Assembly: GCA_019752045.1 (NCBI GenBank)
Contig: JAIEMP010000020.1
Location: forward strand, 1-64,000
Direction of reading: 5' to 3'
Length of the DNA: 64,000 nt
From: Chitinophagaceae bacterium
GTDB taxonomy: Bacteria; Bacteroidota; Bacteroidia; Chitinophagales; Chitinophagaceae
Shown: in pieces, positions 18,214 through 21,901 of the stretch
Layout: each line of letters opens with the position of its first letter
Numbering within the stretch: the stretch's first letter is position 1
Translations under genes and position numbers: made by a program
The notes under the pieces: model-generated
Database searches by the model: none
What the model saw: the letters and a program-made list of their open reading frames with translations, nothing else
Told to the model about the DNA's origin: nothing

Positions 18214-18753
18214 ATGCGAAAACTGGGCATGGATGAACTGAACCGTAAATCGGTGGATGAGTTTAAAGAAGCGGATAAAAATAAGGTGATTGTGGTGCTG
18301 GAAAATATCCGCAGCATGCAGAATGTAGGCAGTGTGTTCCGTACTGCCGATGCGTTTTTGGTGGAAGCGGTTTATCTCATTGGTTATACGCCGCAACCTC
18401 CACACAGGGATATTCATAAAACAGCATTGGGCGCAACAGAAACCGTTATCTGGAAGTATTTCTCCAAAACAACAGATGCACTTACAGAATTGAAAACAGC
18501 AGGTTATAAGATATTCGGTATTGAACAAACACAAGGAAGTATATTGTTGCAGGATTTTAAACAGGGAGCTGATGAAAAGATTGCTCTCATTTTTGGAAAT
18601 GAAGCAGAAGGAGTGGAGCAGGAAACCTTGCATCAATGCGATGGTTGTATTGAAATACCTCAGTTTGGGATGAAACATTCACTGAATATTTCTGTTGCAG
18701 CGGGAGTGGTGTTGTGGGAGATTACAAGTAAAAGGCTACAGAAAAAAGATTAA
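18214..18753 (+). CDS. TrmH/SpoU family RNA methyltransferase
   Basis: 'VVLENIRSMQNVGSVFRTADAF', 'LIFGNEAEGVEQETL', 'IPQFGMKHSLNISVAAGVVLWE' motifs. Confidence 0.93.
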   Translation: MRKLGMDELNRKSVDEFKEADKNKVIVVLENIRSMQNVGSVFRTADAFLVEAVYLIGYTPQPPHRDIHKTALGATETVIWKYFSKTTDALTELKTAGYKIFGIEQTQGSILLQDFKQGADEKIALIFGNEAEGVEQETLHQCDGCIEIPQFGMKHSLNISVAAGVVLWEITSKRLQKKD

Positions 18754-18761
18754 TTTTAAAC

Positions 18762-18974
18762 ATGGAAACAATTGTAATAAATATCCGCAATAAAGAAAAG
18801 GGTAAGTTACTGCGTTCTCTTCTTAAAGATTTGCCGTTTGTGGAAGTAAAAGAAACCCGTAAAAAGAAGTCAAAAGTAAGTAACGGCAGTTTCTTTTTAT
18901 CAAAAGGGATCTGGAAAGATGCATCTATTTCTTTAGCTGAAATACGTAAACAGGCATGGCAAAAGAAGGATTAG
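18762..18974 (+). CDS. Putative antitoxin of a type II TA pair
   Basis: 70 aa, overlaps the PIN-domain ORF start by 19 bp; position and size only. Confidence 0.6.
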   Translation: METIVINIRNKEKGKLLRSLLKDLPFVEVKETRKKKSKVSNGSFFLSKGIWKDASISLAEIRKQAWQKKD

Positions 18975-19345
18975 TTCTGTGTGACTCTAATATAATGATT
19001 GATGTTTACCGGGGGCAGGAAGCAATCATAAAACAAGTAGCCGCATTGGGTAAAGATCGTTTTGTAATTTCAGCAGTATCCGCTGCGGAAGTGTTGTTTG
19101 GAGCACGCAATAAATCGGAACTTCAAAAAATAAAAAAGGATATTGCTAATATACAGGTACTTGAAGTAAACGAAGAAATATCTTCTTTGTTTGTTCAGCT
19201 TGTTTCAGATTATACGTTGTCTCATAAGCTTGCTATTCCTGATGCAATTATCGCTGCAACTGCTCTTACATACAAGTTGCCTTTGTTTACACATAATCAA
19301 AAAGACTTTCGATTTATTACAGGAATAAAATTTTATAAACCATAG
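18956..19345 (+). CDS. PIN-domain (VapC-like) toxin
   Basis: 'LCDSNIMIDVYRG', 'ISAVSAAEVLFGAR', 'LAIPDAIIAATALTYKLPLFTHNQKDF' conserved acidic PIN residues. Confidence 0.88.
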   Translation: MAKEGLVLCDSNIMIDVYRGQEAIIKQVAALGKDRFVISAVSAAEVLFGARNKSELQKIKKDIANIQVLEVNEEISSLFVQLVSDYTLSHKLAIPDAIIAATALTYKLPLFTHNQKDFRFITGIKFYKP

Positions 19346-19352
19346 TTCATAA

Positions 19353-19460
19353 ATGTCTGTAGTAAAAAATTATCTCTCCTTAATTAAGTTTTCGCACACC
19401 ATTTTTGCGTTGCCTTTTGCGTTGATTAGATGCCCCCAACCCCTGAAGGGGAGCATGTAA
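19353..19460 (+). pseudogene. Truncated duplicate of the ubiA 5' end
   Basis: MSVVKNYLSLIKFSHTIFALPFALIRCPQPLKGSM*; first 25 aa match the intact ubiA start except one residue, then runs into a CCCCTGAAGGGG palindrome. Confidence 0.85.
19430..19456. repeat. Family A palindrome (gcccccaacccctgaaggggagc)
   Basis: CCCCT-GA-AGGGG core at the junction of the ubiA duplication; related copies at 6717, 7444 and 21645. Confidence 0.7.
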
Positions 19461-19479
19461 ACCCTCCTAAATTTGTAAC

Positions 19480-20385
19480 ATGTCATCAGTAAAGAATTAT
19501 CTATCTCTAATAAAGTTTTCACATACCATTTTTGCATTGCCGTTTGCGTTGATTGGATTTTGCATCGGTTTTTATTCCTTACCACACTCCGTTGTTCCAG
19601 GATGGCATACGATTGTAATTCCCGATTGGCAGTATTCTGAGTTGTTGAAAAAATTCATACTTGTACTCCTTTGTATGATCTTTGCCCGCAGTGCCGCAAT
19701 GGCATTCAATCGTTATCTCGATCGGAGTTTTGATGCAAAAAATCCACGCACTGCAATACGTGAAATACCTGCCGGAATTATTTCAGCCAACAGCGCCTTG
19801 TTGTTTACCATCATCAGCAGTGTGTTGTTTGTTGGTACAACTTATTTTATCAATACCATTTGTTTTGCTTTATCACCCGTTGCATTACTTGTAGTGTTGG
19901 GATACAGTTATACCAAACGTTTTACTCCGCTTTGTCATTTGGTACTTGGTCTTGGTTTATCACTTGCACCCATCGGAGCATATTTAGCTGTAACAGGTGC
20001 TTTTGAAGTATTACCGATATTGTTTTCACTCACTGTTTTATTTTGGGTGAGTGGTTTCGATATTATTTATTCCTTGCAGGATGAAGAATTTGATAAACAG
20101 TACGAATTGAAATCAATCCCTGCGTGGCTGGGTAAAGCAAAAGCATTGCGTGTTTCAGAACTCCTGCATGTATTGGCAGCCATCTGTGTAATTGCTGCGG
20201 GTGTTTATGGAAACTTTGGTTGGTTGTATTGGATTGGTGTTGCAGTGTTTACAGGAATGCTCATTTATCAACACTCCATTGTTAAACCGGATGATTTACG
20301 CAAAGTGAATATTGCGTTCATGACAGCGAACGGCATAGCCAGTGTTGTGTTTGCGGTATTTGTGATTGCGGATATTATTTTATAA
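19480..20385 (+). CDS. ubiA: UbiA-family prenyltransferase (4-hydroxybenzoate polyprenyltransferase-like)
   Basis: 'AMAFNRYLDRSFDAKNPRTAIREIPAG', 'SGFDIIYSLQDEEFDKQ'. Confidence 0.92.
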   Translation: MSSVKNYLSLIKFSHTIFALPFALIGFCIGFYSLPHSVVPGWHTIVIPDWQYSELLKKFILVLLCMIFARSAAMAFNRYLDRSFDAKNPRTAIREIPAGIISANSALLFTIISSVLFVGTTYFINTICFALSPVALLVVLGYSYTKRFTPLCHLVLGLGLSLAPIGAYLAVTGAFEVLPILFSLTVLFWVSGFDIIYSLQDEEFDKQYELKSIPAWLGKAKALRVSELLHVLAAICVIAAGVYGNFGWLYWIGVAVFTGMLIYQHSIVKPDDLRKVNIAFMTANGIASVVFAVFVIADIIL

Positions 20386-21644: not shown

Positions 21645-21901
21645 CCCTCCGCCCCCTGAAGGGGGGACTGCATTGCACAGCCCTTGCTTTTCCTACTTCT
21701 CAAAAAATGTAGGGAGTAGGCTCGTGGTAAATTAGTTAATGTGGACATTCAACTTTTTTAAGACGCATCATTAAATCTTTTGGTAGCATAGAAATCAAAC
21801 GCAATTCAAATTTTAAAATTGATTTTAAACATCTCAAGTTTTTTGAAAAGCAAGGGCTGTGAGTTGATGGCTTCCCTTTTGGGGAAGTCGGATGGGGCCT
21901 T
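21645..21901. mobile_element. MITE-like non-coding element with long inverted ends
   Basis: cacagcccttgcttttc and its exact reverse complement gaaaagcaagggctgtg in opposite halves; outer imperfect palindromic ends aagccccctccgccccctgaaggggg / ggcttcccttttggggaagtcggatggggcctt. Confidence 0.65.

Follow-up and report, generated by a model that had tools for sequence, protein, structure and literature searches.

The trmH-ubiA locus

The window, that is, the whole 64,000-nucleotide stretch of DNA that was analyzed, comes from a 29-contig draft genome of a Chitinophagaceae-like genus (G000). On its forward strand a trmH gene is followed by a presumed toxin-antitoxin (TA) pair, a truncated start of ubiA, a palindrome and the intact ubiA gene with a leader of its own (Table 1). 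Matches of the intact protein to MqnP models fell below their cut-offs. The leader motif fits TAnnTTTG, which we take to be the Bacteroidota -7 promoter consensus, and is listed as a putative promoter.

Table 1. Features of the trmH-ubiA region (positions in the window)
Feature	Position	Strand	Remarks
trmH/SpoU-family RNA methyltransferase, left neighbor	18214..18753	+	96% amino acid identity to sister G012 (residues 1-170)
Presumed antitoxin ORF, 70 aa	18762..18974	+	Overlaps the PIN ORF; 84% amino acid identity in G009, same place
PIN-domain (VapC-like) presumed toxin	18956..19345	+	PF01850, E 6.5e-16; 85% amino acid identity in G009
Truncated ubiA start, 25 codons plus junction	19353..19431	+	ATG 7 nt after the PIN stop
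REP-like palindrome ATGCCCCCAACCCCTGAAGGGGAGCA	19430..19455	+	Core GCCCCCAACCCCTGAAGGGGA, 19432-19452; 5' foot is the junction
Leader of intact gene	19456..19479	+	Putative promoter motif TAAATTTG, 19468-19475
Intact ubiA, 301 aa	19480..20385	+	UbiA-like prenyltransferase; TIGR01475 above cut-off
Hypervariable segment, codons ~27-57, between TM1 and TM2	19558..19650	+	Identity to G012 resumes at about nt +171 of ubiA

The truncated start, at which we found the ORF MSVVKNYLSLIKFSHTIFALPFALIRCPQPLKGSM closed by a stop codon, and the start of the intact gene form a 79-nt direct repeat (19353-19431 and 19480-19558) with 84% identity and a spacing of 127. Over 25 codons the two copies differ at 12 of 75 nucleotides; 11 codons are changed, one of them non-synonymously, and the neutral probability that 12 randomly placed substitutions yield at most one non-synonymous codon is 5e-5. 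A preliminary description of this DNA had recognized a truncated ubiA 5' duplicate with almost purely synonymous change, a break located at a palindrome, and two diverged functional alleles probably joined there by recombination. Our results confirm the first two statements and support the third. The fragment stops at the 5' foot of the 21-bp repeat at 19432-19452.

A dispersed REP-like palindrome forms the junction

Within the G000 genome the palindrome core CCCCTRAAGGGG occurs in 33 copies, compared with 0 for the reversed control. REP elements are palindromes that hug or overlap gene ends (PMC3733652), and the G000 repeat, a short dispersed palindrome at gene ends, resembles them in this respect; in contrast to them, it carries no GTAG or CGTC tag evident by eye. 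It differs from RAYT-associated REP elements as well, in that its copies do not lie beside the Y1-transposase genes examined (loci of ~3 kb around a subset of these genes), where no core was found save one at the edge of L230, and a RAYT link was rejected for these genes. We also checked 30 copies in G000 for duplicated gene starts on their flanks; the ubiA copy alone has one (1/30), and gene-start duplications were rejected as general neighbors of the repeat. A second core, CCCCTGAAGGGG, is situated at 21653-21664 of the window, where def and the rluD-like gene converge.

The duplicated start recurs in four genera

The same arrangement, a truncated ubiA start abutting a REP-like palindrome that is followed by its own leader and an intact ubiA, was observed directly in five genomes (G000, G002, G343, G121 and G303), which represent four genera of one family. 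The fragments measure ~10, 16, 21 (twice in tandem), 25 and 26 codons, and the REP foot is the left edge in all five scars. The junction of codon 25 with the REP foot in G000 has no long homology, and similar joins occur across the five genomes. The copies within a genome differ by 3-33%, mostly at synonymous sites in G002 (P = 0.006), G303 (P = 1e-4) and G121 (P below 5e-5), as they do in G000.

In G002 a fragment of ~10 codons, with a leader and start like those of its sister G011, precedes a REP-like palindrome; beyond this come a TAnnTTTG leader and a complete ubiA. The 26-codon fragment of G121 follows a TA-like pair whose second gene is RelE-like by eye, and the 16-codon fragment of G303 has REP on both sides. 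In G343 (locus L167) two 21-codon fragments precede the gene, giving three 137-nt units with near-identical leaders and three tandem ubiA starts, which could be simple tandem duplicates; the contig that carries this scar is 3.5 kb long, and the genome is 63% complete. In G343 the end of every fragment ORF overlaps the start behind it in the form ATGA.

A REP-like palindrome lies within 250 bp upstream of ubiA at 13 of 141 loci, some of them redundant. All five fragment cases belong to this REP-bearing group, and the other loci yielded none; because a fragment no longer than that of G002 would escape the peptide scans, this count is a minimum. A pattern search for a start plus REP in nearly the same genome sample returned only G303 and G343 again. 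The REP-leader-ubiA order without a fragment is a normal arrangement elsewhere, as in G112, G269, G026, L076, L077 and G336. At another locus (L192; G295:C1:2607175-2607261), in a single-contig genome, the ubiA frame is open for only 112 codons after the start, perhaps owing to a frameshift in the sequence.

The toxin-antitoxin pair is a linked and probably horizontally acquired passenger

The 70-aa ORF matched no protein family above cut-off and is presumed to be the antitoxin from its position and overlap. The second gene encodes a VapC-like PIN-domain protein (PF01850), the presumed toxin of a VapBC-type pair, with matches to VapC models below their cut-offs. In G009 the order is trmH, the same TA pair, TTCGTAA and an intact ubiA; its 7-nt spacing is identical to the gap that separates the PIN stop from the fragment ATG in G000, where the pair ends 7 bp before the fragment, as had been stated. 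Other PIN homologs were at most 46% identical among the matches listed from 399 family genomes.

The sister G012 and the other congeners lack the arrangement of G009. G012 and further congeners have neither the TA pair nor the fragment, in line with the prediction that some relatives would lack them. G000 and G012 are sisters (bootstrap 100) and G009, on the opposite side of the genus tree, groups with G005, G006 and G008 (98), and no other species between G000 and G009 carries this TA at the trmH-ubiA place. This placement conflicts with the species tree, and the TA pair was probably brought into the G000 lineage by horizontal transfer, along with the ubiA start behind it; the alternative would demand at least four independent losses. 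Third-position identity, used as a measure of divergence in place of dS, is ~0.63 between the G000 and G009 TA pairs, compared with ~0.52 in trmH, ubiA, yqgF and def (pooled).

The preliminary description had read the locus as a fossil of TA acquisition and expected a donor with the TA followed directly by a ubiA allele like the fragment. The expected order exists in G009; the G009 start, in contrast to that expectation, is no nearer to the fragment (63/79) than to the intact start (64/79), and the fragment was rejected as a copy of the G009 donor allele. Likewise, the TA pair does appear to be horizontal and linked to the fragment, but as a general cause of the scar it was rejected, given that three of the five scarred genomes have no TA upstream. 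In G000 the pair is a linked passenger that is unnecessary for the scar.

The trmH-ubiA interval (window 18754-19352) repeatedly serves as a landing site for genes of toxin-antitoxin-like type, also at L115, L136, L020, L172 and L196. It holds PIN genes in G000, G009 and G404, and RelE-like or similar small antitoxin-like ORFs, judged by eye, in G018, G121, L115 and L136.

Sister species show which side of the junction is new in two of the five genomes

Comparison with sister species gives a mosaic pattern that can be read directly from three pairs (G000/G012, G002/G011 and G303/G336): sequence identity runs unbroken as far as the fragment and returns within ubiA beyond the TM1-TM2 loop. This loop is hypervariable in length and sequence between species, with unrelated versions in sister species, and the rest of UbiA is highly conserved; the loop is possibly a diversifying segment that would face the periplasm. 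G012 shares 98% amino acid identity with G000 in both yqgF and def, in addition to the trmH value of Table 1, yet its ubiA leader and loop are different, and the C-terminal tail of trmH also differs between the two. The G000 loop is of the SVVPGWHT type, whose closest relatives occur in other genera. On the right side, identity to G012 resumes inside ubiA past the loop, but as the loop varies everywhere this border is an upper limit only.

In G002 the leader and the 24 nt that open the fragment agree with G011 (22/24), unlike the intact start. The G303 fragment shares 94-96% identity with G336 and G363, and the intact start of G303 reaches no more than 81% with any sequence. In these two cases, in which a close relative (G011 and G336, respectively) decides the matter, the fragment and its leader are the lineage's own allele, and the REP-led intact front, which runs into the hypervariable loop, is foreign. 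This is the reverse of the earlier proposal, in which the fragment is the incoming allele.

For G000 itself, the fragment and the intact start are similar to G012 at 64 and 66 of 79 positions, respectively. As neither start is appreciably nearer than the other to G012 or to G009, the polarity here rests on analogy with the parallel cases and on the foreign-type loop; by these, the intact front would somewhat more probably be the later arrival than the earlier one, and we favor reading the truncated start as the remnant of the resident allele. The intact start is, however, nearer than the fragment to the congeners G013, G003 and G004, which favors the earlier polarity, and such a genus-typical start speaks against the intact front as the newcomer. 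A search of 399 family genomes yielded no exact donor for the REP-led block; the best continuous matches from REP to start reach 77-78% (G269 and G112). The donor arrangements themselves exist, in G009 on the TA side and in G112 and G269 on the REP side, with exact alleles that differ.

Probable one-sided replacement of ubiA alleles

The segment 19353-19479 is probably a scar left when two diverged alleles of ubiA recombined in a one-sided manner. The first allele would have been TA-linked, with the order trmH, TA, 7-nt spacer and ubiA seen in G009, and the second REP-linked, with the palindrome, a short leader bearing a putative promoter motif and ubiA. At the right end the exchange would be hidden by homology within ubiA, downstream of the hypervariable loop, and at the left end an illegitimate join would have placed codon 25 of one allele directly against the REP of the other, at its 5' foot. 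The outcome would be a truncated start ahead of an intact ubiA for which the incoming leader would supply the promoter. Selection would retain only those joins that leave an intact, expressed ubiA, and because of this demand the left edge would fall upstream of the leader. The mechanism that we infer is homology-facilitated illegitimate recombination followed by selection for a functional ubiA. Selection alone does not account for a REP-foot edge in five of five scars; hairpin-provoked breaks or a specific nuclease may contribute this edge.

The polarity of the preliminary description shares the recombination-scar reading and differs solely in which side is new: the TA pair and the fragment would have come in as one piece, by homologous recombination in trmH and an illegitimate join at the REP before the resident ubiA. 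A single event then suffices, the TA is foreign to the G000 lineage and closer to that of G009 at third positions than the surrounding genes are, G009 displays the donor-type order, and the intact start is genus-typical. On the other hand, this course of events needs a resident REP-led leader, which among congeners only the scarred G002 has; both decidable parallels (G002 and G303) show the opposite polarity; and the fragment is no nearer to the G009 allele than the intact start is. We therefore hold it to be a serious but less than even prospect.

A role for the fragment as a functional leader peptide or upstream ORF that regulates ubiA could be read from the mostly synonymous divergence in four cases and from the fragment ORFs of G343, which as read from the sequence reach the ATGA overlap with the next start. 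The fragments nevertheless vary in length, their frames past the break differ, most relatives have none, and neither frame nor position is conserved among relatives as in a leader peptide or attenuator. In the decidable cases they match the sister's own gene start, so the synonymous pattern is explained without any function, and we regard regulation as improbable. Local tandem duplication of a REP-leader-start segment, with the first copy then diverging, is an equally poor prospect: the three units of G343 suit it, but the leaders of the copies are unrelated or strongly different in G000, G002, G121 and G303, where coding divergence is mostly synonymous, so that it fits G343 at most. An assembly artefact or chimera is highly improbable; all five genomes are draft assemblies, but the copies are not identical, the scars of G000, G002, G121 and G303 lie inside long contigs, and the structure recurs in five genomes.

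Turning back to one-sided allele replacement, a bolder extension, which taken as a whole we think rather unlikely, is that the REP is no bystander but itself the left end of the moving DNA, either recognized as such or broken preferentially. At the palindrome a nuclease, a Y1-type enzyme or fork collapse would then free a REP-started strand that recombines rightwards into the resident ubiA, and REP-led gene fronts would constitute a semi-mobile unit through which new variants of the UbiA TM1-TM2 loop spread.

Precedents and implications

Homology-facilitated illegitimate recombination has been described for conjugation in E. coli (PMC3240628) and was proposed for Vibrio T6SS loci, where incoming modules sequentially displace genes and leave remnants of those replaced (PMC5361080). 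As is proposed for the ubiA scar, one end is homologous, the other has little or no homology, and DNA is added at the join; the ubiA case differs in that it is deduced from scars at the front of a housekeeping gene, with a REP-like edge each time. The sequential displacement in Vibrio is the closest precedent: in its orphan immunity arrays and orphan Rhs tips (PMC5361080), as at ubiA, the displaced piece stays beside the newcomer and events can stack. In Vibrio it is the variable 3' end that gives way, and the immunity genes persist (PMC5361080); at ubiA it is the 5' end of a prenyltransferase gene, of which a short start with no evident function is left. The papers available to us describe no scar of this type, and none of them deals with REP in Chitinophaga or with ubiA recombination; the new element is the recurrence at one locus with a palindrome as the edge.

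One-sided recombination scars are best known from toxin and effector loci under strong selection. Here the front of ubiA is swapped repeatedly between bacteria, and the same scar has arisen several times independently before one housekeeping gene, with the join each time at a dispersed palindrome's foot. Two questions thereby become testable: whether imported DNA takes its limits from small dispersed palindromes, and what makes the loop behind the start of this membrane prenyltransferase such a frequent target of exchange.
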